The position numbers and the translations under genes are program-made. From Actinomycetota bacterium (GTDB taxonomy: Bacteria > Actinomycetota > Rubrobacteria > Rubrobacterales > Rubrobacteraceae), in contig SIRX01000038.1 in NCBI GenBank assembly GCA_004563715.1, positions 1-42,544 of the forward strand: a stretch of 42,544 bases of DNA. The letters are read 5' to 3'. Below are positions 9,738-29,268 of the stretch, in pieces. Position 1 is the stretch's first letter. Every line of letters begins with the position of its first letter. The notes under the pieces were generated by a model that was given only the letters and a program-made list of their open reading frames with translations, did not search any database and had not been told where the DNA came from.

Positions 9738-11006
9738 CTAGTCGTCATGGTTGGGCCGCTCGATCCAGTCCGGCAACTCCTGCCGCATCCAGAAGGTCGG
9801 CTCCCCGTCGCCGATGCTGTAGGCCCAGTTGGAGGCGTGGCGGGCCACCGCGTGCAGCCCGGGATCGCCGAACTTTGCCAGCAGCGAGTTGAGCCTCGTA
9901 TTGCGGTAGAAGAAGCCCATCCGCCTGAGGTCGCCCGTCCGGGCCGAGACCGCCGACTCGCGGAACCGGTAACGTACTATCTGGGCCCCTTCCTCCCGGA
10001 AAAAGCGGACCGCCGCCCGCAGCAGCGCCCGTGCCACGTCGCCCCGCTCCGGCAGCGTCGTCAGGTCCAGGATGTAGCCGTCTATGCCGTCGAAGGTGAC
10101 CACCAACACGGTGTAGCCGAGCAACTCACCGTTCTCTCTCACGGCCAGGGTCTTCACCGGGTGCTGGGGAGAGTCGGGGCCGTAGCGCCAGCGCAGAAAC
10201 GCCGCGTCCTTCTCTGGAATACAGGGGACGGCTGCGGCTACCCTCTCGAAGAGGGCGTCGAAGGCGTCGTCGAACTCCTCTACCACCTCGACCTCGAAGC
10301 TGCCCCCGAAAGCCCGCCCGAGGGCTTCGTCCACCCCCTGAAAGCCCGCGTTCAGCAAGCGCTTCGCCGGGGCTGGGAGCGGCAGGCGGGGCCGGGGCGG
10401 CAGGACTTCCGGCTCCTGGCCGTCGCCGGCGGGCGAATCTGTTGTGCCGCCGGTCTGCTGGCCGGGGTACCCCTGGGCGGCGGGCGTGGCGGGGTCCGGG
10501 AGGTTCAGCAGGCGGCGCAGCCGGGCGGGAAGCGGCGGCATCGGTATGCGGGAGGCGCTCAGCACCTTCGCCGCGTAGTGTAGCTGGCCCGCAACTTCGG
10601 CCCCCAGGCGCTCCTCGACCTTGATCGTGGCCGGCACCATGTCGCAGGCGACGCAGTTCTCGCAGGTGCGGAAGAACTTGCGCATCAGCGAGAGGGCGTA
10701 GAAGCCATAGTCCGGGTGGACCATGTAGTCGGTGGGCGTCTGGGCGATCACGCGCCGGCCGTTGATCCGGTAGTACTGGGGGAAGGTCGAGAGAAAGCCG
10801 ACCACCTCGCCCTCCGGCGTGATCGCCGCCCACCGGTAGACCTCGTCGGCGAGGGGGTGCTGCTCGTACCAGCGGTACACCGAGGTGTAGAAGTCGAAGT
10901 CGTGAACCTCGGGGTGGTAGGGGAAGGCGGTGACGCGCAGGCGCCCGATCTCTTTTTCGAGTGAGTAGTCCTCGATCTGCTGTATCGTGGCCTTCTTCTT
11001 TAACAC
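9738..11006 (-). CDS. GNAT-fold acyltransferase, copy 1
   Basis: About 422 residues. I place the start at GTG 11004-11006 because GGAGGT lies four bases upstream; a longer reading would run through the promoter. After an N-terminal strand region (DYSLEKEIGRLRVTAFPYHP), residues 40-125 carry a GNAT acetyl-CoA-binding core, with YMVHPDYGFYALSLMRKFF as motif A. A second half (about residues 225-400) is another GNAT-like domain (AFLRWRYGPDSPQHPVKTL, later YILDLTTLPERGDVARALL). A Pro/Gly-rich linker of about 50 residues separates the halves and is much shorter in the paralog at 16673-17740. The linker prolines and glycines suggest a flexible hinge. Substrate unknown; context suggests envelope modification. 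It has its own promoter (11050-11078). Confidence 0.8.
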   Translation of the reverse strand: MLKKKATIQQIEDYSLEKEIGRLRVTAFPYHPEVHDFDFYTSVYRWYEQHPLADEVYRWAAITPEGEVVGFLSTFPQYYRINGRRVIAQTPTDYMVHPDYGFYALSLMRKFFRTCENCVACDMVPATIKVEERLGAEVAGQLHYAAKVLSASRIPMPPLPARLRRLLNLPDPATPAAQGYPGQQTGGTTDSPAGDGQEPEVLPPRPRLPLPAPAKRLLNAGFQGVDEALGRAFGGSFEVEVVEEFDDAFDALFERVAAAVPCIPEKDAAFLRWRYGPDSPQHPVKTLAVRENGELLGYTVLVVTFDGIDGYILDLTTLPERGDVARALLRAAVRFFREEGAQIVRYRFRESAVSARTGDLRRMGFFYRNTRLNSLLAKFGDPGLHAVARHASNWAYSIGDGEPTFWMRQELPDWIERPNHDD

Positions 11007-11049
11007 CCGCACCTCCGCGCGTACAAAGCTTCTCCGAACTCGGGGGCAG

Positions 11050-11078
11050 AGTGTAAAGGAGAGCCCCGCGAAATCCAA
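11050..11078 (-). promoter_or_regulatory. promoter of GNAT copy 1
   Basis: On the minus strand TTGGAT (11073-11078), 17 bases, then TACACT (11050-11055). The -10 and following bases (TACACTCTG.CC....AGTTCGG) match those of the GNAT copy 2 promoter almost base for base, which supports both calls. Confidence 0.65.
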
Positions 11079-11105
11079 GAACGGCGCGGATCTGCAACGG
11101 AAGAC

Positions 11106-12194
11106 CTAATAGTAGACGTCGCCCTTTACTTTACGGTAGAGCCGGTAGTAGGTGGGCTCCAGCTGGTCCCACGCCGCCGCCCGCGCGGGGGCCACCGGCA
11201 GGTCCAGGCAACCCACGTAGTCCGCCATCTCTCCCCCGAACCCCGCCTTGAACTTGTAGACGCCGTACAGGGGGTGCTCCTCGTTCAGTTCTCCGGGGCC
11301 GGGTACGGCCATCATGTCGTAGCTCGTGACGCCGCGCTCCCGGGCCCACTTCATGATCTCCCACTGCAGCAGGTAACCGGGGTGGAGGCTCCGCTTTTTC
11401 TCCGTGGAGGCGCTCTGGAAGTACCAGCACTTCTCCCCGAAGGTGTAGACCAGCGCCCCGGCCAGCCGCTCTCCCTCGTGCCCGGCGAAGAACAGGTGCG
11501 CCCGGCCCGCGTCGTACATAGCCTGCCAGGCGGCGAACTGGTACTCCCGCGGCCGGTACCAGAACCCCTTGCGAGAGGCGGTGTTCTCGAACATCTCCCA
11601 GAAAACCTCGCGGGCCTCCGGGGAATTATCCTGAACGACCTCCACGCCCTCCCGGGCCGCCCGCCGCACCCCGTAGCGCGTGTCCTTTTTCATGCCCGCC
11701 ATCCGCGCCTCGTCCGGTGGCCTGAGGTCCACGAGCCAGGCGGTCTTGTGGTTTAGGTCCCAGCGGAACTTGCGAAACCCCAGCTCCGCCAGGAGCGCCG
11801 CCGCGGCGTGGCCTTTAGGGACCTCGGGCTCTATCTTGACGGTGTGGGTCTTATGGGCGGCGGCCACGGAGCGCACGCCCTCGAAGAACGCCCGCACCGC
11901 CGCCTCGTCCTCCCAGTTCAGCCACGGACCTTTAGGGCAGAACAGGAGCCTGCCGGGAACCGGGGCGGTGTTGTAGGCGAGCAGCTGTCCCGCGCCCACG
12001 ACCTCGCCGCCCTGCTCCATCACCACGCGCACCGGCTCCCAGCCGAGGCATCGCTTGAGCTCACCCCAGGCGTGGCTCTGGAAGAGGTGACCCCCGCCGG
12101 GGGTCCGGAGGAGCAGGCCGTCCCACTCCGCCGGCGTCGGGTCGCGGACCTCCCGGACCGTGTACGCCGTGGCCGACGTTGCGGGCTGGCTCAC
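11106..12194 (-). CDS. FemAB-family aminoacyl/acyl transferase, copy 1
   Basis: A 362-residue protein of the FemAB/FemX type (two tandem GNAT-like domains), the family that adds amino acids from aminoacyl-tRNA to lipid II side chains or, in other branches, acts in exopolysaccharide/PEP-CTERM clusters. Visible landmarks are LFQSHAWGELKR near the N terminus, the central KKDTRYGVRRAAREGVEV, the conserved LLQWEIMKWARERGVTSYDM and the C-terminal HPLYGVYKFKAGFGGE, the last a hallmark of the family. The start at GTG 12192-12194 has no clear Shine-Dalgarno sequence. It follows the decarboxylase gene by 30 bases on the same strand. About half of the residues appear shared with copy 2 by eye. The donor is unknown. 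Confidence 0.88.
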   Translation of the reverse strand: MSQPATSATAYTVREVRDPTPAEWDGLLLRTPGGGHLFQSHAWGELKRCLGWEPVRVVMEQGGEVVGAGQLLAYNTAPVPGRLLFCPKGPWLNWEDEAAVRAFFEGVRSVAAAHKTHTVKIEPEVPKGHAAAALLAELGFRKFRWDLNHKTAWLVDLRPPDEARMAGMKKDTRYGVRRAAREGVEVVQDNSPEAREVFWEMFENTASRKGFWYRPREYQFAAWQAMYDAGRAHLFFAGHEGERLAGALVYTFGEKCWYFQSASTEKKRSLHPGYLLQWEIMKWARERGVTSYDMMAVPGPGELNEEHPLYGVYKFKAGFGGEMADYVGCLDLPVAPARAAAWDQLEPTYYRLYRKVKGDVYY

Positions 12195-12224
12195 CGTGGG
12201 GTCCGGGCGGGGCTGGGCACGCTG

Positions 12225-13553
12225 CTAGAGCACCGCCTTCTGGCCGTTGAGCACGTCCTCGGGCTTGCCGGGGGGGCGCAGGAGGTGCGGCTCGCCCTGC
12301 CACACGAGCACCTCCGCGGGTTCCGGGTGGCTCAAAAAGCCCCGGTTGCTGGCGGAGAAGCCGTAGGCCCCGCTGTAGAACACCCCGAGGAGGTCGCCGA
12401 CCTCCGGCTCGGCGAGCGGGATGTTGGTGCCGAACATGTCCAGCGGCGTGCAGCAGGGGCCGGCCACCGCCGTACCCTCCTCGGCAGGCTCCGCCCCGGG
12501 CCGGCTCAGGTTCATCAGGGGGTATGCCTTGCGGAAGACCTGGCCCATGTTGCCGGTGGCGGTGAGGTGGTGGTTCATGCCGCCGTCGGTGACGGCGAAG
12601 GTCTTGCCCCGCATCCGCTTCACGTCCACCACGCGGGTGACGTAGAGGCCCGCGTCGGCGACCAGGTAGCGTCCCAGCTCGAAGATAAAGCGGCAGCCCT
12701 CCAAGCGCGCATCCGGGCGGTAGACGGCCTGGAGGTCCCGGAAGCCGGCGCCGAAGCGCTCCAGGTCGAACTCCTCCATCTTCTCGAAGTACGGCACCCC
12801 GAAGCCGCCGCCGAAGTCCACCATCTCCAGAGGACGCCCGGCGTGGTCGGCGGCCTCCAGGGCCACCTCGAAGATGTTGCGGCAGTGCTCCAGCAGGGCG
12901 TCCACGTCGAAGACCTGGGTAGCCGTGTAGATGTGGATGCCCCGCAGGATGAGCTGCGGGTAGTCGAGCACCTTCCGGACGGCCTCGCCCAGGTCCGCTT
13001 GGTCCATGCCGAACTGGCCGACCGTCCCGCCCATCCGCATCTGGGAGCCCATGAGTTGGGCGGCGGGGTTTATGCGCAGCCCGACCCCGACGCTGCTCCC
13101 CTCATCCTCCGCGACGGCGGCGAGGCGCTCGATCTCCCCCAGCGACTCCACGTTGACCGCGAAGATGCCCTCCCGCACGGCCCGCCGCAGCTCGTCTTCG
13201 GTCTTGGCGGGGCCGGCGAAGACGATGTCCTCGGGGGCGATGCCGGCGGTGCGGGCCACCACCAACTCGCCGGAGGAGGCCACCTCGCCGCCCGCGCCGC
13301 TCTGCGAGAGCAGCTGGCAGACGGCGACGCTCGGGTTCGCCTTTACGGAGTAGGAGACCTCGATGCCCTCGCCGAGCGCCTCCCGCACGCGGCGGACCCT
13401 CTCCAGGAGCATCTCGCCGTGGTAGAGGTAGAAGGGCGTCCCGTACAGCTCGACTATCCGGGAGATGGGGACGCCGCCGGGGGAGAACTCCACGCCGCCG
13501 TCCGCGTCGAAGCGCGCCGCCAGGGCGCGGGCCTTATCCTGCTGTGTAAGCAT
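12225..13553 (-). CDS. PLP-dependent decarboxylase, DAP/ornithine fold III type
   Basis: A 442-residue fold-type III decarboxylase related to diaminopimelate decarboxylase (LysA). The PLP lysine is K71 in VSYSVKANP; HIYTATQ, the phosphate-binding glycine loop FGGGFGVPYFEK, and the catalytic cysteine block GPCCTPLDMF are all present. The substrate-specificity region differs from true LysA, and the gene sits with an AMP ligase and an ACP rather than with lysine genes. This matches the branch seen in exosortase-associated clusters and in butirosin synthesis (BtrK), where an amino acid is decarboxylated while bound to a carrier protein. I infer that role here. The start lies within the last codons of the ligase gene (20-base overlap), indicating translational coupling. 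Confidence 0.88.
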   Translation of the reverse strand: MLTQQDKARALAARFDADGGVEFSPGGVPISRIVELYGTPFYLYHGEMLLERVRRVREALGEGIEVSYSVKANPSVAVCQLLSQSGAGGEVASSGELVVARTAGIAPEDIVFAGPAKTEDELRRAVREGIFAVNVESLGEIERLAAVAEDEGSSVGVGLRINPAAQLMGSQMRMGGTVGQFGMDQADLGEAVRKVLDYPQLILRGIHIYTATQVFDVDALLEHCRNIFEVALEAADHAGRPLEMVDFGGGFGVPYFEKMEEFDLERFGAGFRDLQAVYRPDARLEGCRFIFELGRYLVADAGLYVTRVVDVKRMRGKTFAVTDGGMNHHLTATGNMGQVFRKAYPLMNLSRPGAEPAEEGTAVAGPCCTPLDMFGTNIPLAEPEVGDLLGVFYSGAYGFSASNRGFLSHPEPAEVLVWQGEPHLLRPPGKPEDVLNGQKAVL

Positions 13554-15117
13554 TGCTGATCGTCTTCCTGTCTATCTTGCCGGAGCCGGTCTTCGGGAGG
13601 TCGTCCCGCACGAGGATCTCCTTCGGCACCATGTACGGTGGGCCGTTCTTTACGCAGTGCTCGCGAATCTGCTCCGCCGCCTCCTCCCCGCTGCCGTCCT
13701 TGAGCGAGACCGCGGCCACCACCTGCTGGCCGAGGTCCGGGTCGGGGACGCCGAAGGCGCACGCCTCCCGCACGCGGCCCGAGCCTATGATGAGGTCTTC
13801 GATCTCCTCGGGGCTCATGCGGTAGCCCTGGCTTTTGATCATGGCGTCCGCACGCCCGACGAGGTACAGGTATCCCTCCTCGTCCCTGTAGGCTAGGTCG
13901 CCGGAGTAGACGATCTTGCTCTCCGGTAGCTCCGGGGGGGCGAAGGGGTCCGGCCGGTACGCCTTGCGCGTGGCCTCCTCCTTGTCCCAGTAGCCCAGCG
14001 CCACCGTCGGACCCCGGTGCACCAGCTCCCCGACCTCGTTGGGGGCGCACTCCCGGCCGTTCTTGTCCACCACGTAGACCTCGGCGTTGGGGATGGCCTG
14101 GCCGATGCACCACTTCTCGGGGCTCACGCGGTCCAGCTCGTCCGGCGGCAGGTAGGTGGACCGGAACGCCTCGGTGAGGCCGTACATCAGGTAGATCTTC
14201 GTCTCCGGCAACAGCCGCCGCAGCTCTTCGAGGTTCGCGTAGGGGATGCGCCCGCCGGAGTTGGTGATGTAGCGCAGGTGCGCCAGGGGCTGCTCCCGGA
14301 GGCTCTTCGCGCTCCGCAACAGGAGCGTCCACAGCGGCGGCACCCCGGCGAGCCCCGTCGCCTCGTGGCGGCGCAGCCCTTTCAGCAGGTCTCCCGGCAG
14401 CCGGGAGTGCTGGAGGATCAGGGTGGCGCCTACGCGCAGGGAGCTGGTGAGCTGGTTCAGCCCGTAGTCGAAGCTGAACGGCAACGCCGCCAGGATGCGG
14501 TCCTCGGGCGTGTTCTCGACGTAGGTGGAGACGATCTGGGCGCCCACCACCAGGTTGCGCTGCGAGAACGCTACCCCCTTCGGCTGCCCGGTGGACCCGG
14601 AGGTGTAGAGGATGGTCCCCAGGTCTCCCTCCAGTACCGGCTGCTCCAGCCACGAGCCGCCGCCCTGGCCCAGGATCTTGTCCAGGCTCCGCAGGTTCTC
14701 CGCCGCCCCGTTCGCCGGCGGCTCGTCGCCCTTGTAGAAGGCGGTCTCCGCCAGGTCCGGCTCCAGGCTCTCCAGCTTCGCCTTGTCCCCGACGAGCACC
14801 CGCACGTCGCAGTCCTCGGCTATGTACTTCACCTGGGGCGGCTTGAGCAGCGGGTTGATGTTCACGAAGGCGGCGCCGACCTGGGAGGCCGCGAGCATCG
14901 CCACGACCGCCTCCCAGGACTTCTCCATGTAGATGCCGACCCGGCCACCCTTCCCGACCCCGGCGTCGAGCAGCGCGGCGCACAGGGAGCTGCTGGCGCG
15001 CGCCAGGTCCTCGTAGGTGTACTCGGCCTTGCCCTCCACGACGGCGACCTTCTCCGGGGTCCTCTCCGCCGCGTTGCGCAGCAGGTGGTGGAGGGCGAAC
15101 TCCGGATGCGGCGTCAC
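13534..15117 (-). CDS. AMP-forming acyl/aminoacyl-carrier-protein ligase
   Basis: A 527-residue ANL-superfamily adenylate-forming enzyme. It activates a carboxylic acid with ATP and loads it on a thiol, here probably the adjacent ACP. Motifs in order: P-loop-like TILYTSGSTGQPKGV (about residue 170), YLMYGLTEAFRSTYL (A5 region), VYSGDLAYRDEEGYLYLVGR (A7/A8), and KTGSGKIDRK with the catalytic lysine near the C terminus. It resembles the ligases annotated as exosortase A-system associated, and D-alanine activating enzymes. The start GTG 15115-15117 overlaps the ACP stop codon (GTGA), with GGAG upstream, so the two are co-translated. A much longer reading upstream would run through the ACP gene in another frame and is rejected. 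Confidence 0.92.
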   Translation of the reverse strand: MTPHPEFALHHLLRNAAERTPEKVAVVEGKAEYTYEDLARASSSLCAALLDAGVGKGGRVGIYMEKSWEAVVAMLAASQVGAAFVNINPLLKPPQVKYIAEDCDVRVLVGDKAKLESLEPDLAETAFYKGDEPPANGAAENLRSLDKILGQGGGSWLEQPVLEGDLGTILYTSGSTGQPKGVAFSQRNLVVGAQIVSTYVENTPEDRILAALPFSFDYGLNQLTSSLRVGATLILQHSRLPGDLLKGLRRHEATGLAGVPPLWTLLLRSAKSLREQPLAHLRYITNSGGRIPYANLEELRRLLPETKIYLMYGLTEAFRSTYLPPDELDRVSPEKWCIGQAIPNAEVYVVDKNGRECAPNEVGELVHRGPTVALGYWDKEEATRKAYRPDPFAPPELPESKIVYSGDLAYRDEEGYLYLVGRADAMIKSQGYRMSPEEIEDLIIGSGRVREACAFGVPDPDLGQQVVAAVSLKDGSGEEAAEQIREHCVKNGPPYMVPKEILVRDDLPKTGSGKIDRKTISNAYTAG

Positions 15118-15365
15118 GAGGTCTTGCTCTCCACAAGGGAGGCGATGCTCCTCACCGAGCCGAAGTTCTCCTCGTCCAGCTCGTCGTCCTCCACGACGAT
15201 GCCGAACCGGTCCTCCATAAACATGACCAGTTCCACCGTCTGGAGCGAGGTCAGGACGCCGTTCTCGATCAGGGGCTCGTCGTCGGAGATCTCGCGGTTC
15301 CCCGTTACGTTCTCCTGCAGCCACTCCCGGATCGCGGCGGCCGCCGTCTCGGTGTTTACGCTCAT
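15114..15365 (-). CDS. acyl carrier protein
   Basis: An 83-residue acidic carrier protein. The phosphopantetheine serine is S40 in ENGVLTSLQTVELVMFMED; the usual DSL is TSL here, a small departure from the consensus, but the helix II pattern is intact. The start at ATG 15363-15365 has GGGAGG about ten bases upstream; six residues ahead in frame are not needed. Together with the overlapping ligase and decarboxylase it forms an activation/loading/decarboxylation cassette. It could carry an amino acid (as BtrI does in butirosin synthesis) or another acid; the sequence cannot tell which. A 7-base palindrome upstream (15409-15426) may be regulatory. Confidence 0.9.
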   Translation of the reverse strand: MSVNTETAAAAIREWLQENVTGNREISDDEPLIENGVLTSLQTVELVMFMEDRFGIVVEDDELDEENFGSVRSIASLVESKTS

Positions 15366-15408
15366 AAGCTGTCTACCTCCCAAAAAATATCTAAACTTTG
15401 ACTCTAGC

Positions 15409-15426
15409 CGTGTAGGTTACTACACG
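15409..15426. promoter_or_regulatory. palindrome upstream of the ACP operon
   Basis: CGTGTAG-GTTA-CTACACG is a perfect 7-base inverted repeat with a 4-base spacer, 44 bases upstream of the ACP start, in an AT-richer gap between copy 2 of FemAB and the ACP gene. It may be an operator or an RNA hairpin in a read-through transcript. No clear -35/-10 is visible. Confidence 0.45.
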
Positions 15427-15466
15427 CCGCCGGGGGCTATGGTGGCGCGTCCGAGAGATTACCACG

Positions 15467-16576
15467 TTAGTAGTAAACGTCGCCCTTTGTCCTCTGGTGC
15501 AGGCGGAAGTAGGTCGGCTCGACCCGGTCCCACAACCGCGCGAGCCGGGGCTTTACCGGCAGGTCGAGGGTGCCCACGAAGTTGAGCATTTCGCCGCCGA
15601 AGCCCTCCTTGAACTTGTAGACGCCGTAGAGGGGATGGTCCTCGTTCAACTCCTCGGGTTTTGGTATGCCCCACATGTCATAGTAGGTGATGCCGCGGGC
15701 TTTGGCCCACTTCATGATCTCCCACTGCAGCAGGTTGGCGGGCGTGATCTTGCTCTTCTCCCGCGTCGAGACGCCGAGCATGTAGATGGCTTTGCGCCCG
15801 AAGGTGTAGACGAGGGCCGCCGCCGGGCGCGTCCCCTCGTGTTCGGCGAAGAAGAGGTGGCCCCGGCCGGCCGCATGAAGCTCCCTCCACACGGCGGCGT
15901 AGTAGCTGTAGGGCCGGCTCCAGAAGTCCTTGCGCTCCACCATCTCGCCGTGCATGCGCCAGAAGAGGTCCAGCGCCCCCCGAGAGTTGTCCTGCACAAC
16001 CTCCACGCCCTCCCGGGCCGCACGCCGCACCCCGTAACGCGTGCCCTTCTTCATGCCCGCCATCAACTCGTCTTCGGAGCGTCCTAGGTCCACCGCGAGC
16101 GTCGCCTTGTGGTTCACGTTCCACCGGAACCTCTGAAACCCCATCTCCCAGAGCAGCTTCTTCGTTTTCTCATCCTCTTCCGGGACCTCGGGCTCTATCT
16201 TTATGGTGTGGGCTTTGTTGGTGGCGGCTATAGAACGCACGCCCTCGAAGAACGCCCGCACCGCCTCCTCGTCGTCCCAAAGGAGCCACGGTCCCTTGGC
16301 GCAGTACAGCAGGCCACCGGGCACCAGCGGCGTGCTGTAGTAGAGGAACTGCCCCAGCCCCGCCACCGCGCCGTCCTTCTCCATGAGTACGCGCACGGGC
16401 TTCCAGCCGAAACGCCGCTTCAGCTCGCCCCACTCGTGACTCTGGAGGAGGTTGGCCCCACCGGGTGCGTTCTCGGCCCACTCGTTCCACCGCTCTGGAG
16501 ACGCGTCCGGCTTCTCCGCGACCGTGTAGCCCCCGATTACGGGAAAGCCGGTGTTCTGGGCGGCGGAGAAGGACAT
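15467..16576 (-). CDS. FemAB-family aminoacyl/acyl transferase, copy 2
   Basis: A 369-residue paralog of the transferase at 11106-12194. The two share LLQSHEWGELKRRFGWKPVR, IKIEPEVP, MAGMKKGTRYGVRRAAREGV, LLQWEIMKWAKARGITYYDM and the C-terminal HPLYGVYKFKEGFGGE, and both end KGDVYY. The start at ATG 16574-16576 has GAGGTAG upstream; 23 further in-frame residues are unlikely. It lies directly downstream of GNAT copy 2 (gap 96 bases), just as copy 1 and GNAT copy 1 are neighbours, so an ancestral GNAT-FemAB pair seems to have been duplicated around the ACP cassette. The acceptor is presumably an envelope precursor; this is inference from family. Confidence 0.88.
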   Translation of the reverse strand: MSFSAAQNTGFPVIGGYTVAEKPDASPERWNEWAENAPGGANLLQSHEWGELKRRFGWKPVRVLMEKDGAVAGLGQFLYYSTPLVPGGLLYCAKGPWLLWDDEEAVRAFFEGVRSIAATNKAHTIKIEPEVPEEDEKTKKLLWEMGFQRFRWNVNHKATLAVDLGRSEDELMAGMKKGTRYGVRRAAREGVEVVQDNSRGALDLFWRMHGEMVERKDFWSRPYSYYAAVWRELHAAGRGHLFFAEHEGTRPAAALVYTFGRKAIYMLGVSTREKSKITPANLLQWEIMKWAKARGITYYDMWGIPKPEELNEDHPLYGVYKFKEGFGGEMLNFVGTLDLPVKPRLARLWDRVEPTYFRLHQRTKGDVYY

Positions 16577-16672
16577 ATCTACCTCGTTGGCGTACGGCGC
16601 TTTCTGGAACGGAGCTAGTCTAGGAGCCGGAACACACCCCGTCAAGCTCGCCGGGGCGCGGCTGCCGGCGCG

Positions 16673-17740
16673 CTACACCATCCAGAAAGAGCCTTCGCCG
16701 TCTCCCAGGGTGTAAGCCCAGTTGGAGACGCGGCGGGCGGTTTTTTGCAGGCCGGGGTCTTCCAGCTTGACGAGCAGGTTGTTGCGCCGCACCCGGCGGT
16801 GAAAAAAGCCCAGCCGCCACATCTCGTCCGGCCGGGCCGAGGCCGGCGACTCCCCGTACCGGTAACGTACTATCTGGGCTCCCGCCCGGCGAAAGCGGCG
16901 GACCGCCGCCCGTAGCAGCGCCCGCGATACGTCCGGACGACCGGGAAGCGCCGTCAGGTCGAGTATGTAACCGTCCATGCCCCGCGTGATCTTGAGCACG
17001 GCGTAGCCGAGGAGGCCCGCGCCCCCTTTTACGCCGAGCACCGTAACCGGGTGCTGGGGGGAGCCGGGACCGTAGCGCCAGCGCAGGAAGGCCGCGTCCT
17101 TCTCGGGGATGCAGGGGACGGCTGCGGCCACCCTCTCGAAGAGGGCGTCGAAGGCGTCGTCGAACTCCTCGACCTCCTCGACCTCGGGGCCGCCGCCGAA
17201 AACCCGGCCCAGGGCTTCGTCAGCTACCCGGAGGCCGGCGTTCAGCGGACGGTGCAGCGGGGCGGGCACCGGTTTCGGAAAGCGGGAGACGTCCAGGACC
17301 TTCGCGGCGTTGCGCAGCTGGCCCGCAACCTCGGCCCCCAGGCGCTCCTCGACGCTGACCACGGCCGGCACCAGGTCGCAGGCGACGCAGTTCTCGCAGG
17401 CGCGGAAGAACTTGCGCATCAGCGAGAGGGCGTAGAAACCGTAGTCCGGGTGGACCATGTAGTCCGCGGGGGTGTGGGCGGCCACGCGCCGGCCGTTGAT
17501 CCGGTAGTACTGGGGGAAGGCCGAGAGGTGTCCCACCACCTCGCCCTCCGGCGTGATCGCCGCCCACCGGTGGACCTGGTCGGCGAGGGGGTGCTGCTCG
17601 TACCAGCGGTACACCGAGGTGTAGAAGTCGAAGTCGCGGACTTCGGGGTGGTTCGGGTAGGCGGTGACGCGCAGCTTTCCGACGCCTTCTTCGATCTCCC
17701 TCACCCCGTTCAGGGGCCTTACCGTGACCTTCGTCGCCAT
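16673..17740 (-). CDS. GNAT-fold acyltransferase, copy 2
   Basis: A 355-residue paralog of the protein at 9738-11006. Shared blocks include HPEVRDFDFYTSVYRWYEQ, ADYMVHPDYGFYALSLMRKF, EDAF-like DAFDALFERVAAAVPCIP and AAFLRWRYGPGSPQHPV. The linker between the two halves is about 50 residues shorter than in copy 1. The start at ATG 17738-17740 has GGAGGAG about 11 bases upstream. It is the first gene of a minus-strand run that continues with FemAB copy 2 and then the ACP/ligase/decarboxylase/FemAB genes. Acetyl-CoA or acyl-CoA donor binding is expected from the fold; an acyl-ACP donor is possible given the neighbours. Confidence 0.8.
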   Translation of the reverse strand: MATKVTVRPLNGVREIEEGVGKLRVTAYPNHPEVRDFDFYTSVYRWYEQHPLADQVHRWAAITPEGEVVGHLSAFPQYYRINGRRVAAHTPADYMVHPDYGFYALSLMRKFFRACENCVACDLVPAVVSVEERLGAEVAGQLRNAAKVLDVSRFPKPVPAPLHRPLNAGLRVADEALGRVFGGGPEVEEVEEFDDAFDALFERVAAAVPCIPEKDAAFLRWRYGPGSPQHPVTVLGVKGGAGLLGYAVLKITRGMDGYILDLTALPGRPDVSRALLRAAVRRFRRAGAQIVRYRYGESPASARPDEMWRLGFFHRRVRRNNLLVKLEDPGLQKTARRVSNWAYTLGDGEGSFWMV

Positions 17741-18046: not shown

Positions 18047-19558
18047 GTGAAGCCCGCAGCGAGAAAACGGCGGAGCCGGCCGGCCGCCGTGCGACGCCGC
18101 CGGCGCCGTCGGCGCGGCCTCGCGCTCCTGGTGCTGGCCGTACTTTTCGCCGGCATCGCCTACGCCGCGGGGTATCTACCGGGGGGTGGAGACCATGCGG
18201 CGGAGGCCGGCTCCGGCGAGCCGGTACGCAAGGTCTCCCCGTTGGGTGAGCCGCTCTCCGGCAGAGAGGACCTCCCCGAGCCGCCGGACGCGATCAAGCT
18301 CAAGAGGACCCCAGCCTCCGCGGCCTACCTCGCGGTGGCCGGGGAGCTTCCCGACGTGGACCGGGAGAGCATAAAAGCCGTCTACCGGAGCGAGGACGAC
18401 CCCGACTGGGCCGCAGTACGGTTCGGCCTGGAGGACGAGGAGGGGGACCACGTCCTCTTTTTACAGAAGGAGGGGCGGGCTTGGGAGGTCCGACGGTCGG
18501 TGTTGACCGACGAGCCGGACTACCCGGAGAACGAGCAGGCCGTGCTCGGGGGCGTGCCCGAGGACCTCGCTGGCTCTCTCTACACCGTGGCGGAGGCTGA
18601 GAACGGGCTGCCGTCGGACTCCGCGCCCGTCGGCGAGCCGCCGGACCTGGAGGGCGTGCCGGACATGGGCCAACCCCGGTTTTCCGGGACCGAGCCGTTT
18701 CTGGAAGGCGTCCCGAGCGCCGAGCGCGGGCGGATAGAGAAAGGTCTCTCGGAGGTGCGTGAGGTCGTAGAGCGCTACGACGGCGTGGCCGGCGTCTACG
18801 TGCGGGACCTGGAGGGCGGCTGGGGCTACGGGGTGCGGCCCGACGAAGAGTTCTTCAGCGCCTCGGTAATAAAGGTGCCGATCATGATCGCCGTCTACCG
18901 CAAGATAGACGAGGGTGAGCTCTCCCTGTCGGACCGGTTCGAGACCGAGGAGTGGGACTGGGCCGCTGGTGCCGGCTGGCTGCAGTGGGAGGACCCCGGC
19001 GAGGTCTACAGCGTCTACGACTACCTGTGGATGATGATGACCCAGTCCGACAACGTGGCCACCAACGCCCTGTTGCGCAAGGTCGGCGGCATAGACTACG
19101 TCAACGAGGTCTCCCGCTCCCTGGGGACCGAGGACACGGTGCTCATGCAGAAGGTGACCAGCGAGCGGGGCGCGGTACCCGCCCTCGATAACCGGACCAC
19201 GACCCGGGACATGGTGGTCATGATGGAGAAGATCGCCGACGGCACGGCGGCGAGCCCCGAGAGCTCCCAGGACATGGTAGACCTCATGTTCCTCAACGTG
19301 CTCGACTCGTGGCTGGTGGACGGGCTGCCGTCCGAGACCCCGGTGGCCAACAAGTCGGGCTGGCTCTACCAGTGCTACAACGAGGTCGGCATCGTCTTCC
19401 ACGACGACCGGCCCTACGCGGTGTCGGTGCTCTCCAAGTACGGACCCGCGGACCCGGAGGCGGCCAAGCCGGACCTGACCGAGATCTCCGAGAGGTTATG
19501 GGACGTTCAGGACGGCGGAACGGAGGGGGGAGAGGAGCCGTCCGAGGAGGAAGGTTGA
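18047..19558 (+). CDS. class A beta-lactamase-fold serine hydrolase, membrane-anchored
   Basis: A 503-residue protein starting at GTG 18047. An arginine-rich N terminus (positive-inside) precedes one membrane segment (about residues 24-42), so the rest is outside the cell. After a low-complexity linker and a small alpha/beta region (residues 75-200), the beta-lactamase2 domain runs from about residue 235 to 480. It contains SVIK (S273, K276) as the SxxK catalytic pair, SDN in MMTQSDNVATNALL, and KSG in ANKSGWLYQ. All three active-site motifs of the family are intact. It could be a beta-lactamase or a peptidoglycan-directed hydrolase; being anchored and beside murJ favours a wall role. Its last 52 bases overlap the convergent murJ gene. 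Confidence 0.88.
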   Translation: MKPAARKRRSRPAAVRRRRRRRRGLALLVLAVLFAGIAYAAGYLPGGGDHAAEAGSGEPVRKVSPLGEPLSGREDLPEPPDAIKLKRTPASAAYLAVAGELPDVDRESIKAVYRSEDDPDWAAVRFGLEDEEGDHVLFLQKEGRAWEVRRSVLTDEPDYPENEQAVLGGVPEDLAGSLYTVAEAENGLPSDSAPVGEPPDLEGVPDMGQPRFSGTEPFLEGVPSAERGRIEKGLSEVREVVERYDGVAGVYVRDLEGGWGYGVRPDEEFFSASVIKVPIMIAVYRKIDEGELSLSDRFETEEWDWAAGAGWLQWEDPGEVYSVYDYLWMMMTQSDNVATNALLRKVGGIDYVNEVSRSLGTEDTVLMQKVTSERGAVPALDNRTTTRDMVVMMEKIADGTAASPESSQDMVDLMFLNVLDSWLVDGLPSETPVANKSGWLYQCYNEVGIVFHDDRPYAVSVLSKYGPADPEAAKPDLTEISERLWDVQDGGTEGGEEPSEEEG

Positions 19559-21135
19559 GCCTCCTCCCGGCCCAGGCGCCGTTTTAGCAGGGTGCCGACC
19601 CACTTCATCTCCCCCGCGCGGAGCAGGTAAGCCGCCCCGAGGTAGGTCCCCAGGGACAAGCTCCCGACCGCCGCGATGATCCCGGCCCGGCCGGCCGCCG
19701 TCGAGCCGGTCCCGAGGAGCGCCGTGCCCGTCCGGGCGGCGGCGTACATCACGGCCCCGGCGATGAGGATCTTGACCAGAGATTGCAGAAGCTGCCGGCC
19801 TCCGAGGCGCTTGGTCTCCCGGCGCATCATGGCCAGGGCGGCGAGGGCCAGCGTCGCGTTCGCCACCGAGAGCGCCAGCGCCACGCCGACGAGGCCGATG
19901 GTCTGCGACATGGCGTAGGCCAGGGCCACGTAGAGGACCAGCAGCGCGACGTTCAATATGGCGGGGGTCATCGTATTCTGCCGGGAGTAGAACGCCCGCA
20001 CGAGGAAGAAGTACACCCCGTAGCCGAGCAGGCCCACCGCGTAGGCGACGAGCAGCGCCGCCACGGTCCTGGTGGCCTCGGCGTCGAAGGCGAAGCGCTC
20101 GTAGAGCAGCCCGATCACCGGCTCGGCCAGCACCACCAGGCCGACGGTGGAGGGAACCGAGACGAAGGCTACCAGCCGCAGGCCGAAGGATAGGGTGTCG
20201 CGGTAGCCCCCGGCGTCCCGGCGGGAGAACTTCTCGGAGAGCTCGGGCATCAGGGCGGTCGCCACGGCCACGACGAAGACGCCGTAGGGGAGCGTAAAGA
20301 CGGCGAAGGCGTAACCGAGCTGGGCCACCGCCTGAAAGGAGCTGGCCAGGTAGTTGGCGTAGAACTGGACGCCGACCGAGGCCGCGACCAGCACGAGCAT
20401 CGGCCCCGCGAGCCGGGCGGCGGTGACGAGGGCCGGGTGCCCGACCTTCGGGCGCGGCGTGTAGCCGAGGCGCAACATGGTCGGGACCTGCACCAGCGCC
20501 ATCAGGACCGCGCCCACCGTGGCCCCGGAGGCGAGCGCGTAGATCGCCAGCCCGGAGCCGCGCGCGGCGAGGAACGCGTAGGCGATAAAGGAGGCGATGA
20601 CCGACAGGTTGTACAGCACGGGCGCGAAGGTGGGCAGGAAAAAGCGGCGGTGGGACTGGAGGACGCCGGTGGCGATGGTGCTGAGGCCGAAGAAGATCAT
20701 CTGCACCGCGAAGATGCGGAAGAGCAGCGTCGCCAGTTCCACCGTCTCCCGGGCCTCCGCTGGCGAGACGTTCTCGGCCTGCGACCAGGCCGTGGCCAGG
20801 TTCACCAGGGGCTCGGCGAAGATGATGCCCAGGAGCGCGACCGCGGCGAGCAGCGGCAACGCGAGGGTGAGGAGCGCGTTGATCAGGTCCCGGGCGTCCC
20901 GCTCTCCGTGGATGGTGAGCCGGTCCACCAGTATCGGGATGAAGATGGAGTAGAAGATGCCGCCCAGGAACAGCTCGTAGATCAGGTTCGGCAACAGCAC
21001 GGCTATGGCGTAGGCGTCGGCCACCAGCCCGGTCCCGAGCACGGCGGCCAGGGCCGCCACCCGCACGAAGCCCGTTATTCGCGAGAGGATCGTTGCAACG
21101 GAGATGGTTAGCATGGAGCGGAGGAGGGCTGCCAT
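19507..21135 (-). CDS. murJ: lipid II flippase MurJ
   Basis: A 542-residue polytopic membrane protein of the MOP superfamily that flips lipid II across the membrane for peptidoglycan synthesis. The N-terminal signature SMLTISVATILSRITGFVR is typical, as are VADAYAIAVLLPNLIYELFLGG and the many evenly spaced hydrophobic segments (about 14). Length is usual for the core MurJ; there is no extra cytoplasmic pseudokinase or C-terminal domain as in mycobacterial MviN. It lies back to back with a PASTA kinase (142 bases between starts); in mycobacteria MurJ is under PASTA-kinase control, so the pairing makes sense. Its 3' end overlaps the beta-lactamase-fold gene by 52 bases. Confidence 0.95.
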   Translation of the reverse strand: MAALLRSMLTISVATILSRITGFVRVAALAAVLGTGLVADAYAIAVLLPNLIYELFLGGIFYSIFIPILVDRLTIHGERDARDLINALLTLALPLLAAVALLGIIFAEPLVNLATAWSQAENVSPAEARETVELATLLFRIFAVQMIFFGLSTIATGVLQSHRRFFLPTFAPVLYNLSVIASFIAYAFLAARGSGLAIYALASGATVGAVLMALVQVPTMLRLGYTPRPKVGHPALVTAARLAGPMLVLVAASVGVQFYANYLASSFQAVAQLGYAFAVFTLPYGVFVVAVATALMPELSEKFSRRDAGGYRDTLSFGLRLVAFVSVPSTVGLVVLAEPVIGLLYERFAFDAEATRTVAALLVAYAVGLLGYGVYFFLVRAFYSRQNTMTPAILNVALLVLYVALAYAMSQTIGLVGVALALSVANATLALAALAMMRRETKRLGGRQLLQSLVKILIAGAVMYAAARTGTALLGTGSTAAGRAGIIAAVGSLSLGTYLGAAYLLRAGEMKWVGTLLKRRLGREEAQPSSSDGSSPPSVPPS

Positions 21136-21277: not shown

Positions 21278-23149
21278 ATGCAAGGGACCGTCGTAAACGA
21301 GCGTTACGTGCTCCGGGATTTTCTGGGCCGCGGGGGCATGGGGCAGGTGTACCGGGCGCACGACGAGCTTCTGGACCGGGAGGTGGCCCTGAAGCTGCTG
21401 GCCCCCCAGCACGCCGAGAACCCCTCCTTCGTGGAGCGCTTCCGGCGGGAGGTCAAGAACGCGGCGGCGCTCTCGCACCCCAACATCGTCTCGGTCTTTG
21501 ACGCGGGGGAGTCCGCCGGCGGCGTCCCCTACATGGCTATGGAGTACGTCGGCGGCGGCACGCTGGCGCAGAAGATCGACAAAGAAGGACCCCTCGACGC
21601 CCTGGAGGCGGCCGGGATAGCGCTCCAGGTAGCCCGGGCCCTGGAAGAGGCGCATTCGCGGGGCGTGATCCACCGGGACATAAAGCCCCACAACGTCTTT
21701 CTGGTCGAGGAGCTAGCCTCCACCGGCACCTCTTCTGCCGGGATCACGGGCGCCGATCCCGGTGGCCTGCCTCCGGGGAGCGTCAAAGTCGGGGACTTCG
21801 GCATAGCCCGGGCCGCCGCCGAGACCGCCATGACCGAGACGAGCCTGATCCTGGGCACCGTCCGCTACCTCTCGCCGGAGCAGGCGACCGGCGAGGCGGT
21901 AGGACCGGCCAGCGACCTCTACTCCCTGGGCGTCGTGCTCTACGAGATGCTGACCGGCGAGGTCCCCTTCGACGCCGAGAACCCCGTGGCCATAGCCATA
22001 AAGCACGTCTCCGAGCCGCCCCCGCCGCCGCGCCGGGAGAACCCGGGGGTTCCGGAGAACCTGCAGGCTATAACCCTCAACCTCCTCTCCAAAGACCCCG
22101 GGGACCGCTACGCGGAGGCCGGAGAACTTCTAGAAGACCTGGAACGGGTGGCCAGGGGGCTCCCGCCGGCCAGGCTGCCCGCCGAAGACGCCACGGAGGC
22201 CCTGGAGCGTCCCGGGTCTCCTCCGGCGAGGGGTGGGAAACACTTCGTCCCGGCCCGGAGGTCCCGGTTCCGGCGCCGGTTCGGCACGATGCTGGTCCTC
22301 GCCGGGGTCTTGGCGGCGCTCGCGGTGGCCGGGTCTACCGGGGGCCTCGCGGCGCTCACCGGGGCCTCTGGAGACCAGGAGGCCGCCCAACCGGTGGGAG
22401 GCGTGCAGGAAGTCCCGGAGCCTTCCGGGATCGAAGCCCCGGTAGTCCTGGTGGGCATACCGGACGTGGTAGGCGAGAGCCGGGAAGAGGCGGTGCAGAC
22501 CCTGGAGGACGCCGGTTTCGAGGCCGAGGTTGACGCGCAAGAGACCTCTGCCCGGGAAGAAGGAACCGTGCTGTCCCAGGCCCCCGAACCCGGCAACCGG
22601 GCCGAGCGTGGCTCGGAGGTCTCGATAACGGTCGCCGAAGCCCCGCCGGCCGTGCAGGTCCCAGACCTTACCGGCCTGAGCGTCGCCGAGGCGGAGGCCG
22701 CGCTCTCGGAGGCGGGCCTGGTTCTGGGAGAACAATCCCAGACGCCGAGCGGCACGATGCCGGCGGGCCTGATACTGGGCCAGAATCTCCAGGCCGGGGA
22801 GGAGGTGTCGGGCGGGAGCAGCGTGGACGTGACCGTCAGCTCGGGGCCGCCCGAGCCAGCGGCAACGCCGCAGCCGGCTCCGGTTCCGGAAGCCCCGGAG
22901 GAAGAACCCCAAGAGCCTCAAGCCGAAGAACCCCAGGAGCCTCGGGCCGAAGAGCCCCAGGAACCTCAAGCCGAAGAGCCCCAGCCCGAAGAGCCCCGGG
23001 GGGAGACGCCGGAGGACGCCGCTCCTCCTGGGGACGCCGGACCGGGTGACGACGCTTCGGAAAGCCCTGGGGAACCGGAGGCGGGTGGCCCGATCTCGCG
23101 GATGCCCGTCGAGCCCCGGGAGCCGAGAATGCCGGACGTTCTGCCGTAG
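21278..23149 (+). CDS. PASTA-domain Ser/Thr protein kinase
   Basis: A 623-residue Hanks-type kinase (PknB/PrkC-like). Kinase domain residues 10-290: glycine loop FLGRGGMGQVY, K39 in VALKLL, catalytic HRDIKPHN (132-139), DFG (173-175), LGTVRYLSPEQ activation segment. An insertion of about 23 residues rich in Ser/Thr/Gly lies between the catalytic loop and DFG, where most relatives have only a short turn. One membrane helix lies near residue 340. Outside are two PASTA repeats (about 393-453 and 455-520: IPDVVGESREEAVQTLEDAG and VPDLTGLSVAEAEAALSEAG), which bind muropeptides in this family. The tail is a Pro/Glu-rich repeat. It probably senses the wall and regulates growth; murJ is divergent. 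Confidence 0.93.
   Translation: MQGTVVNERYVLRDFLGRGGMGQVYRAHDELLDREVALKLLAPQHAENPSFVERFRREVKNAAALSHPNIVSVFDAGESAGGVPYMAMEYVGGGTLAQKIDKEGPLDALEAAGIALQVARALEEAHSRGVIHRDIKPHNVFLVEELASTGTSSAGITGADPGGLPPGSVKVGDFGIARAAAETAMTETSLILGTVRYLSPEQATGEAVGPASDLYSLGVVLYEMLTGEVPFDAENPVAIAIKHVSEPPPPPRRENPGVPENLQAITLNLLSKDPGDRYAEAGELLEDLERVARGLPPARLPAEDATEALERPGSPPARGGKHFVPARRSRFRRRFGTMLVLAGVLAALAVAGSTGGLAALTGASGDQEAAQPVGGVQEVPEPSGIEAPVVLVGIPDVVGESREEAVQTLEDAGFEAEVDAQETSAREEGTVLSQAPEPGNRAERGSEVSITVAEAPPAVQVPDLTGLSVAEAEAALSEAGLVLGEQSQTPSGTMPAGLILGQNLQAGEEVSGGSSVDVTVSSGPPEPAATPQPAPVPEAPEEEPQEPQAEEPQEPRAEEPQEPQAEEPQPEEPRGETPEDAAPPGDAGPGDDASESPGEPEAGGPISRMPVEPREPRMPDVLP
22901..22996 (+). repeat. 24-base coding repeat in kinase tail
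   Basis: Three and a half copies of a 24-base unit encode EEPQEPQA-type octapeptides, with silent and Q/R changes between copies. Such Pro/Glu repeats usually form extended, wall-spanning segments and vary in copy number between strains. Confidence 0.8.
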
Positions 23150-23251: not shown

Positions 23252-23881
23252 ATGTCGGGCGTGCAGCGCGAGAGCTACAGAGTTTACAAGAGCCGTCGCC
23301 GCTGGGACACGCCTTCGAGCAAGCGTCGGAAATTCGGCAAGAGGGGTCTGATCGCCAGCGGGCTAGCCCTGATCCTGGTCGCGGCCGGGCTGGTGCTGAT
23401 GAACGTGCCGTTTTTGGGCGGTCCCCCCGGTGCGGCGCCGGTGCCCACCGACGACACGATGCGGCTCACGATACCCAAGATGCAGCGGGTCCAGGGCGTC
23501 CCGGTGTACACCGCGGCGGCCAACGACGAAAACAAGCTCGGCTCCGGCACCATCCATCTGGCGGGCACCGGCTTCCCGTGGGAGCCCGGGGCCAACGTGT
23601 ACATTGCGGGCCACCGGCTAGGCTACCCGAACACGAAGAGCTTCCTGGTCTTCTACGACCTGAACAAGCTGAAGGACGGCGATCGGGTGGTGCTCCGGGA
23701 CTCGGTCGGCACCCGATACATCTACCAGGTTTTCAACCGGTTCATCACCACCCCCGACGACATCTCCGTCACCGAGCCGGTGCCGGGCCGGAACATAGTC
23801 AGCCTGCAGACCTGCACGCTCCCGGACTACTCCCAGCGCCTGATAGTCCAGGCCGAACTGGTCGACAGCAGGCCCGCTTAG
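23252..23881 (+). CDS. sortase (class E/D-like transpeptidase)
   Basis: A 209-residue membrane-anchored sortase. A basic N terminus (about 30 residues) and one hydrophobic segment (residues 33-52) precede the beta-barrel. The catalytic triad residues are visible: H121 in YIAGHRLGYP, C188 in LQTCTLPDYSQ and R196 in QRLIVQ. Sortases cut a C-terminal sorting motif and join the protein to the wall or to pilins. The style (GSGTIHLAGTGFPWEPGANVYIAGH) resembles class E, common in actinobacteria; the class is not certain. No substrate with an LPxTG/LAxTG tail is present in the window. It lies 100 bases downstream of the PASTA kinase. Confidence 0.9.
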   Translation: MSGVQRESYRVYKSRRRWDTPSSKRRKFGKRGLIASGLALILVAAGLVLMNVPFLGGPPGAAPVPTDDTMRLTIPKMQRVQGVPVYTAAANDENKLGSGTIHLAGTGFPWEPGANVYIAGHRLGYPNTKSFLVFYDLNKLKDGDRVVLRDSVGTRYIYQVFNRFITTPDDISVTEPVPGRNIVSLQTCTLPDYSQRLIVQAELVDSRPA

Positions 23882-27643: not shown

Positions 27644-29209
27644 ATGTACCAAGCGCAGCACGGCCCAGCCTACGACTTCGGCGTGTGGCTTGCCGAGCAC
27701 GGCCCCGACATCGTAGAGGGCATCACCGACCCCACCAACTTGCCGCTTCTCGCTGGCGGCGCCGCGCTCTCGGCCGCCGGGGGTGGCGCGGGCCTAAAGG
27801 TCGCCTCCGTGGGGCTGCGGGGGGCCCAACGCCTCTTCGCCAAGCCCGGCTACGTCTCACTGGGGTTCCGGCGGCGGGACGGGATCGACCGTTTCTTGAA
27901 CCCGCTCGTCCTTCTCTCCGCACGGGACCGCTCTATGGGTATGCAGCTCGTCGGCCCCACGGGCTCGGGCAAAACCTCCTTCGCCCTGCCCATCGCCGTG
28001 CAGGACCTGATGCGCGGACACAACGTACTGGTGATCGAGATCTTCGGCGACCTGGGTCTCTCGATTCTCCCCTACGCCGAGGCTTTGGGCGTTCCCGCGT
28101 TCGTGTCCGATCCTTCCGACCCCTCCTCGCTAGGGTGGAACCCTATGGCGGGTGGCAATAGGGAGGAGGTCGCGGACAGGATCGCGGCCGTTATGGAGTC
28201 CCTAACGGACAACCCCTTCTACCAAGAGTCCAACTACGCCGTCGCATACCACCTGACGTCGCTCGCCTGGGACTTCGCCGCCCAGCGCGGCGTGGACCCG
28301 GACCTGGAGCTCCTCGACGCGCTGATGCACGACCGCGACTTCGCCCTGGACGTGATGAGGGCGACGAAAACGAGCAAGAGGACCGAGACCTACCTGGAGA
28401 AGACCTACCTCGCCTGGAACGAGCGGGACCGGGACGAAAGGACGGGCAGCATGAAGAACCACCTCGCGAGGCTGCTCTCCAACGCGAAGGCCGCGCGGCA
28501 CCTCTGTCCCGCGGCGGGGGATCCGATCCTGGACCTCCGCGAGGCGCTATCTTTTCCGGGATCGTGCACCGTCATCCGCTTCCCCGCCGCGGTTCTCCGC
28601 GGGGCCGCGCGCACGGGCGCCGCCCTGGCCTTCCGCGCCGCGCAGGAGATAACCTACGAGCGCGCCGACGAGCCTCGCGCGGGCCAACGGCCCTTGTCCG
28701 CCATGTTCGACGAGATGCACACTCTGCTCGGGCACGGCACCAGGTTCTCCGTCGAATACACGCGCGATTGGATCACCCTCGTGCGCCACTGCGGCGTGAT
28801 GGTCTTGGGGGCTTTCCAGGGCTACGACCTCCTGCCCCAAGCCCTCGCCGGCACGGTGGAGACCAACCTCCGCAACCTGGCCGTCGCTGGGGGCCTGGGG
28901 CCCGCCGACCTGCGCAGGGTGCGGGACGCGCTGGGCACGGAGGAGGCCTACGTCGAGGACGAGCGCAGGACCCACGGTCCGAACGGCACGGTCCGATCCC
29001 GCGGCCGCCGCCTCATGGAGCAGCACCACTTCGCGGCCCACGAGCTCCAGAACCTCAGGCGAGGCCGGTGGGCCGTCAGGCTCCTCAAGAACGGCAACGT
29101 GCAGAAGCCGTACGTTGTCAAGGCGCCCAAGATGGCGTCCCCGGAGCGCGTCTCGCGCTCGTTCGCCGCCAGGCGGTCGAGGGCCCGCAGGCGGACGCCG
29201 CGGTGCTAG
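27644..29209 (+). CDS. VirD4/TraG-type conjugative coupling ATPase
   Basis: A 521-residue P-loop ATPase of the type IV coupling protein/FtsK-HerA kind, which drives DNA into a transfer channel. Walker A is GPTGSGKTSFALP (about residues 104-116); Walker B is SAMFDEMH (about 350); RFSVEYTRDWITLVRHCGVM and GAFQGYDLLPQALAGTVETN match the sensor/arginine region of the VirD4 branch. The N terminus has a weakly hydrophobic Ala/Gly-rich segment (residues 33-55) in place of the two clear membrane helices of classical VirD4. ATG 27644 has GAGGAG eight bases upstream. It is the first gene of an apparent three-gene unit with a zinc-finger protein and a replication-relaxation protein. No relaxase or VirB4 is present in the window. 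Confidence 0.85.
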   Translation: MYQAQHGPAYDFGVWLAEHGPDIVEGITDPTNLPLLAGGAALSAAGGGAGLKVASVGLRGAQRLFAKPGYVSLGFRRRDGIDRFLNPLVLLSARDRSMGMQLVGPTGSGKTSFALPIAVQDLMRGHNVLVIEIFGDLGLSILPYAEALGVPAFVSDPSDPSSLGWNPMAGGNREEVADRIAAVMESLTDNPFYQESNYAVAYHLTSLAWDFAAQRGVDPDLELLDALMHDRDFALDVMRATKTSKRTETYLEKTYLAWNERDRDERTGSMKNHLARLLSNAKAARHLCPAAGDPILDLREALSFPGSCTVIRFPAAVLRGAARTGAALAFRAAQEITYERADEPRAGQRPLSAMFDEMHTLLGHGTRFSVEYTRDWITLVRHCGVMVLGAFQGYDLLPQALAGTVETNLRNLAVAGGLGPADLRRVRDALGTEEAYVEDERRTHGPNGTVRSRGRRLMEQHHFAAHELQNLRRGRWAVRLLKNGNVQKPYVVKAPKMASPERVSRSFAARRSRARRRTPRC

Positions 29210-29268
29210 AGGGTGGAGGTTTCGCGGGGCACCGCGTCCTCGGCATCGCGTGGGGAGGGGGCCAACCC

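Follow-up and report, generated by a model that had tools for sequence, protein, structure and literature searches.

As far as we know, the established routes to peptidoglycan interpeptide bridges use either aminoacyl-tRNA, through Fem enzymes, or an ATP-grasp ligase, in the case of D-Asp. Amino acids are also loaded on acyl carrier proteins (ACPs) and decarboxylated there in natural-product pathways. In butirosin biosynthesis, Glu is turned into gamma-aminobutyrate (GABA) on an ACP, with BtrK acting as the glutamyl-ACP decarboxylase, and is then transferred to the aminoglycoside. In AFC-BC11 biosynthesis by Burkholderia, AfcQ, AfcK and AfcP convert L-Asp to beta-Ala-S-carrier in vitro (PMC12186527), and VinN and VinO carry out the equivalent carrier-bound decarboxylation with 3-methyl-Asp (PMC11284099). 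Here we describe a cassette encoding two tandem-GNAT proteins, two FemAB transferases, an ACP, an AMP-forming ligase and a pyridoxal 5'-phosphate (PLP)-dependent decarboxylase. It lies in a 42,544-nt stretch (hereafter the window) of contig SIRX01000038.1 (assembly GCA_004563715.1), from a Rubrobacteraceae genome of 3.47 Mb that is 99% complete. As a whole, the cassette is best explained, and probably so, as a carrier-protein-dependent beta-alanyl route to the peptidoglycan interpeptide bridge. Taken separately, a role of the cassette in murein is very likely, beta-alanine is quite likely to be the residue, and we lean towards the GNAT as the transferase. The support for this reading consists of the genes themselves, their conservation, the co-occurrence of GNAT and decarboxylase, the murein-gene context, a VinN-like pocket and the presence of the cassette in a beta-alanine-bridged species; from these we infer aspartate as the substrate in the window organism, the GNAT as transferase and a murein precursor as acceptor.

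In the proposed route, the ligase would adenylate the side-chain (beta) carboxylate of L-aspartate and load Asp on the ACP, and the BtrK-type decarboxylase would remove the alpha-carboxylate to give beta-alanyl-S-ACP. The tandem GNAT, here with or beside the FemABs, would then pass this beta-alanyl group on to the diamino acid at position 3 of the murein precursor, at its free side-chain amine, before MurJ flips the precursor. This diamino acid is probably Lys in the source organism and Orn in Sphaerobacter. Transpeptidases would then cross-link the strands via the beta-alanyl group. The contribution of the two FemABs may be to attach additional residues (e.g. L-Ala from tRNA) or to share in the transfer, and the extra FemABs and second GNAT of the window organism may lengthen or vary the bridge.

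By comparing the locus with described systems, we found the closest chemistry in the Afc and Vin pathways, which we count in favour of a conversion of Asp to beta-alanyl-ACP that would proceed here by analogy. The AfcQ/AfcK/AfcP set likewise combines a PLP decarboxylase and a single carrier protein with a stand-alone VinN-type adenylation enzyme (PMC12186527), whereas its beta-alanines go into a lipopeptide and the window genes stand with a tandem GNAT and with murein genes. VinN/VinL/VinO (vicenistatin) and FlvN (fluvirucin) have the D230/S299/R331 adenylation pocket of the beta-amino-acid type and an aminoacyl-ACP that is decarboxylated by a PLP enzyme (PMC11284099), but they supply a starter unit to a polyketide pathway, while the cassette has F at the K330 position and is accompanied by GNAT and murein genes. 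The arginine of VinN and AfcQ is considered to bind the alpha-carboxylate so that the side-chain carboxylate gets activated (PMC12186527, PMC11253843). The window ligase aligns with this pocket at D213 (D230 in VinN), S283 (S299) and R315 (R331; numbering of window:13534-15105), in an alignment made through the pocket with a fragment, and the whole ligase family retains the equivalents of D230, S299 (as S or T) and R331. The pocket strings are also close between S. thermophilus (SFDYGMN/TNSGG/MYGLTEAFRST) and the window (SFDYGLN).

The decarboxylase has BtrK as its best match in the PDB (E 6e-79), ahead of every diaminopimelate (DAP) decarboxylase, the next enzymes scoring 2e-55 and weaker. 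BtrI/BtrJ/BtrK shares ACP, ligase and decarboxylase with the cassette but lacks a GNAT of the cassette family. In the ACP, the predicted phosphopantetheine serine is Ser40 in GVLTSLQTVEL (~15246-15248); its LTSL motif is kept in the Sphaerobacter and Rokubacteria ACPs, and the best NCBIfam relatives are specialised ACPs. The XrtA/PEP-CTERM clusters are related as well, since the ligase passes the 592.35-bit cut-off of TIGR03098, has the same pocket as the proteobacterial ligases, and TIGR03099 matches the decarboxylase strongly but below threshold (417.6 vs 478.45 bits). However, the cassette ligases form a separate clade and the proteobacterial loci examined contain no cassette-family GNAT. 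We therefore rejected a plain exosortase cassette, based on this clade and on scores below the cut-offs of TIGR03099 and of TIGR03019, the XrtA FemAB family (38.1 and 42.2 bits for the window FemABs vs 260.35); the window genes that we scanned with Pfam/NCBIfam included no exosortase or PEP-CTERM gene, a genome-wide search not having been made. Five proteobacterial loci (L073, L075, L082, L083 and L068) hold probably XrtA-type ligases with a D / S-T / F-R pocket. As the pocket is common to these ligases, the XrtA-type clusters, too, may produce beta-alanyl-ACP starting from aspartate.

Thus, the comparisons with butirosin and exosortase clusters that an initial annotation of this DNA had drawn are borne out, as is the cell-wall role that it had assigned to the cassette. 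Decarboxylation on the carrier, as judged from sequence, also appears correct. The product has to be revised: in place of the free amine that had been suggested, a beta-aminoacyl (beta-alanyl) thioester derived from aspartate is most likely. The guess that such a route had not been described agrees with our literature searches, which found no description of a tRNA-independent, carrier-protein route of bridge building.

The link between the cassette and wall chemistry comes from Sphaerobacter thermophilus DSM 20745 (genome G074), which carries the genes in the order GNAT-GNAT-ACP-ligase-decarboxylase. The murein of this species is of the A3beta type and was chemically shown to be cross-linked via beta-alanine, with Glu:Orn:Ala:beta-Ala = 1:1.1:1.2:1.6 in wall hydrolysates (PMC3035262). 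In its genome we found no canonical FemAB, only two weak matches (~38 bits) in an exopolysaccharide cluster (L110:4816-8187, corresponding to G074 C1 ~1264815-1268186). Nor did we find a femAB near murE in S. thermophilus; within the Thermomicrobiales, femAB lies beside murE in the cassette-less genome G070 and in G043. Given that no canonical FemAB is present, something else probably adds the beta-Ala of S. thermophilus. Since beta-alanine has no tRNA, an ACP route would be chemically sensible, and our literature searches found no explanation for the making of this bridge.

To determine how widely the cassette is distributed, we fetched 50 loci and mapped most of them, with partial maps for those of low GC content. 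What recurs is the set GNAT-ACP-ligase-decarboxylase. Over 20 genomes from several phyla have it: Rubrobacteraceae, with Rubrobacter marinus (L052) among them, Sphaerobacter and other Chloroflexota, a Rokubacterium and Archangium. Because this four-gene core recurs so widely, the grouping goes beyond chance. Where a locus offers enough sequence, the GNAT nearly always lies directly upstream of the ACP, and the GNAT and decarboxylase sets coincide exactly, in the same 10 of 41 genomes for Rubrobacteraceae and relatives. Independently of these, in the order to which Sphaerobacter belongs, the decarboxylase occurs in 4 of 61 genomes and the GNAT in the same four (a chance of 1 in 521,855 under random placement, kinship being ignored). 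By contrast with this stable core, FemAB is variable, being absent from 8/24 carrying Rubrobacteraceae genomes, among them the near-complete G020 and G510. In a tree of the ligases, those of the Rubrobacter/Sphaerobacter/Chloroflexota type group together with support, separately from the proteobacterial enzymes, and the Chloroflexota ligases nest beside the window ligase, which suggests transfer between phyla.

The genomic context of the unit includes murein genes. In the Rubrobacteraceae loci with enough flanking sequence, a beta-lactamase-like gene stands beside the cassette in most and murJ is near it in most. In Chloroflexota, one locus has the cassette with murE, murJ and three to four femAB genes (L057), and another has the cassette unit with murE and murJ (L085). 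In the Rokubacteria and in one Chloroflexota relative, the cassette is found among apparent glycan genes. VanW/PG_binding_4 proteins (L093, L095) are frequent cassette neighbours in Rubrobacteraceae. Loci from metagenome-assembled genomes may be assigned to the wrong taxon: one such genome of 7.0 Mb, labelled Thermomicrobiales (L041, JAUJMV010000017.1), has a Rubrobacter-like cassette with murJ, and is probably a mixed bin or a case of recent transfer. In Archangium, a second VinN-like ligase with an ECKR pocket and its own ACP (L064:7404-9221) lies close to the cassette-type ligase. A further 23 Chloroflexota genomes (L097-L103 and others) encode decarboxylases that are 37-41% identical to the window enzyme and score above ordinary LysA, with no close cassette-type ligase in the DNA seen.

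We then compared the FemX content of Rubrobacteraceae with and without the cassette. An ordinary FemX, 32-40% identical to FemABb, was found in 13 of 15 cassette-less genomes vs 3 of 24 cassette-bearing ones (Fisher p 5.7e-6, kinship not corrected). The difference held among genomes at least 90% complete (11/12 cassette-less genomes vs 2/11 carriers; p 6e-4, kinship again not corrected). Conversely, FemABs of the cassette type occur in 14/24 carriers vs 0/15 non-carriers. The MurE motif is TTDDAY (TTDDSY in one) in carriers and non-carriers alike, so the position-3 diamino acid, and with it the acceptor amine, is probably unchanged; a different diamino acid in carriers is for that reason not supported. 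The cassette and the FemX/FemAB enzymes would have the same job on the position-3 diamino acid, and homologous FemABs are found in the operon. They would differ in the donor, which is aminoacyl-tRNA for FemX/FemAB and a proposed ACP thioester from Asp for the cassette, whose core is also present in genomes without canonical FemAB. The window FemABs themselves score far below the 500 bits required for the NF047883 FemX family (92.2 for FemABb, 80.6 for FemABa).

For GNATa, AlphaFold2 predicts a tandem GNAT fold with confidence (pLDDT 90.9, pTM 0.89), and the best Foldseek matches of this model are Eis-like and N-myristoyltransferase tandem GNATs. N-myristoyltransferase moves an acyl group from a thioester to an amine. 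The predicted two-domain fold and the acyl-thioester-to-amine chemistry are thus the points of likeness, whereas identity to the cassette GNAT is only ~9-14% and the donor and acceptor of the latter are putative. We count the resemblance of the model to N-myristoyltransferase in favour of transfer by the GNAT, as far as a predicted structure can indicate it. In Pfam searches, GNATb passes Acetyltransf_1 (PF00583; 27.2 vs 20.7 bits), while GNATa has a sub-threshold Acetyltransf_9 match only. According to our own reading of the alignment, the R/Q-x-x-G-x-G/A CoA signature is intact in neither GNAT domain, which would be compatible with a donor other than CoA.

The genes in the window are listed in the table below. 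They are transcribed in the order GNATa, FemABa, ACP, ligase, decarboxylase, FemABb, GNATb, with intergenic gaps of ~100 nt or less; the ACP stop and the GTG start of the ligase overlap as GTGA, and the ligase gene shares 20 nt with that of the decarboxylase. These short gaps and two overlaps make the seven genes look like one operon. Besides the hits in the table, the scores above the Pfam gathering cut-offs were 139 bits for Orn_Arg_deC_N (cut-off 23.4), 273 for AMP-binding (29.9) and 25.7 for PP-binding (20.8); the FemAB cut-off is 24. GNATa and GNATb are 63% identical and FemABa and FemABb 60%, so the duplication is real. murJ lies upstream on the same strand, with the beta-lactamase-fold gene between on the opposite strand, followed by the PASTA kinase and the sortase. 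An Rfam scan gave no match, and a promoter/terminator scan nothing decisive. Elsewhere in the window, Replic_Relax and weak TrwB-like genes (27644-31088) point to a neighbouring mobile element, and a partly lower-GC region (37135-42121) holds type I restriction-modification hsdM and hsdS, then a DUF1016/YhcG-type nuclease.

Table. Genes of the cassette and its neighbours in the window (positions in nt).
Feature	Position	Strand	Description
GNATa	16673-17740	minus	tandem-GNAT N-acyltransferase, proposed beta-alanyl transferase
FemABa	15467-16576	minus	cassette-type FemX-like transferase, optional member; PF02388 128.7 bits
ACP	15114-15365	minus	83 aa; PF00550 above cut-off
Ligase	13534-15117	minus	AMP-forming, VinN-type, GTG start; TIGR03098 596.9 bits
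Decarboxylase	12225-13553	minus	PLP type-III, BtrK-like
FemABb	11106-12194	minus	second FemX-like transferase, optional member; PF02388 126.9 bits
GNATb	9738-~11012	minus	second tandem GNAT, longer inter-domain linker; start codon uncertain
Class-A beta-lactamase-fold protein	18131-19558	plus	conserved neighbour; PF13354 197.8 bits
MurJ lipid II flippase	19507-21135	minus	conserved neighbour; PF03023 276.5 bits
PASTA kinase	21278-23149		near cassette
Sortase	23252-23881		near cassette

Gene calls and Pfam scores thus agree with the initial annotation on the order and place of the seven minus-strand genes, both overlaps, the duplicated GNAT-FemAB pair and the four neighbours. Its seven-gene unit did not survive the gene maps: the bracketed order is special to the source genome, with L038 and L056 as the nearest arrangements, and was rejected as the conserved unit. 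Non-conservation of the cluster, which the initial annotation had named as an outcome against its reading, was not what we saw for the four-gene core. Of the FemAB/GNAT pair to which transfer had been ascribed, the GNAT belongs to this core and FemAB is optional. Finally, the scope needs to be wider than the Actinobacteria, given the carriers in Sphaerobacter, other Chloroflexota, Rokubacteria and Archangium.

We considered other explanations for these observations. FemABs are known builders of interpeptide bridges and the cassette-type ones are restricted to carriers, so they might be the beta-alanyl transferases while the GNAT does otherwise, for example by modifying the carrier-bound product or the acceptor. 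We regard this as unlikely, because eight carriers (G020 and G510 included) have no FemAB, S. thermophilus has no canonical one, and the GNAT directly precedes the ACP in nearly all adequate loci, L085 excepted. A change of substrate would give a GABA-containing wall or bridge, if the ligase loaded L-Glu through the gamma-carboxyl and the decarboxylase turned it into gamma-aminobutyryl-ACP, as in butirosin chemistry. The decarboxylase is indeed closest among solved structures to BtrK, which takes glutamyl-ACP, and the VinN pocket residues are kept only in part. Yet beta-alanine is the residue found in the murein of S. thermophilus, whose cassette is the same and whose pocket is almost so, and the literature gave no report of GABA in such walls, making this alternative rather improbable. 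We give similarly little weight to a decoration of exopolysaccharide or surface glycan, such as one could suppose for XrtA/PEP-CTERM clusters, in which a beta-aminoacyl-ACP would N-acylate an amino sugar and not peptidoglycan. That the ligase falls in TIGR03098 with a pocket common to proteobacterial ligases of that type would fit, as would the glycan genes around the Rokubacteria cassette and that of one Chloroflexota relative, but the ligases of Rubrobacter and Sphaerobacter group in a supported clade of their own, the neighbours are murJ, murE, femAB and beta-lactamase-fold genes, and beta-Ala is proven in Sphaerobacter murein.

Two further explanations are very improbable. The decarboxylase might act on free DAP, Lys or Orn in a polyamine or diaminopimelate operon, the ACP and ligase being incidental, since it belongs to a LysA-like superfamily and matches TIGR01048 (LysA). 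However, the score of 277.2 bits is below the cut-off of 297.9, the CESGD motif of LysA is replaced by CTPLD (CTPED in BtrK), a separate lysA is present on contig C78 of the source genome, and the ACP, ligase and decarboxylase genes overlap; we rejected a free DAP, Lys or Orn decarboxylase on the motif, the cut-off and the separate lysA. As the characterised relatives BtrIJK, VinNLO and AfcQKP make natural products, the cassette could also supply an ACP-borne beta-amino acid unit to a secreted, antibiotic-like compound. Against this, no polyketide synthase or nonribosomal peptide synthetase modules were found among the window genes scanned, and the cassette is conserved as a small operon next to murein genes across much of a family.

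Several observations weigh against a beta-alanyl route to the murein bridge. The cassette and a published beta-alanine bridge coincide in one organism only, S. thermophilus, and Rubrobacterales are described generally as L-Lys<-L-Ala (PMC3035278), L-Lys or meso-diaminopimelic acid being allowed for the genus Rubrobacter (PMC6834744). An ordinary FemX and the cassette are found together in G043, G015, G513 and R. marinus, and L085 has ACP-ligase-decarboxylase without an adjacent GNAT. In the pocket, K330 of VinN corresponds to F314 in the window ligase, and the F231 position is Y in the window ligase, A in many Rubrobacter ligases and A or V elsewhere; the substrate may therefore differ, and to judge by these residues the ligase may take Glu instead of Asp. 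Beta-alanine is also reported from Dictyobacter (PMC12453558), while the sampled phylum search gave no large Chloroflexota genomes among the cassette carriers, Dictyobacter itself not having been identified in the sample; beta-alanine may thus have another source as well.

Together, these data suggest, with somewhat better than even confidence, that the cassette is a carrier-protein thioester route to the bridge that needs neither tRNA nor ATP-grasp ligases. On this reading, it would have taken the place of the Fem route in some Rubrobacteraceae and in Sphaerobacter, and would spread from phylum to phylum as a set of four genes. For the beta-alanine bridge of Sphaerobacter, the cluster offers a complete and testable answer, one that would tie natural-product chemistry to a core cell-wall step. 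The common ligase pocket also suggests a possible product for the TIGR03098/03099 enzymes of XrtA clusters. In addition, the wall chemistry of many uncultured Rubrobacteraceae would become predictable from their genes.

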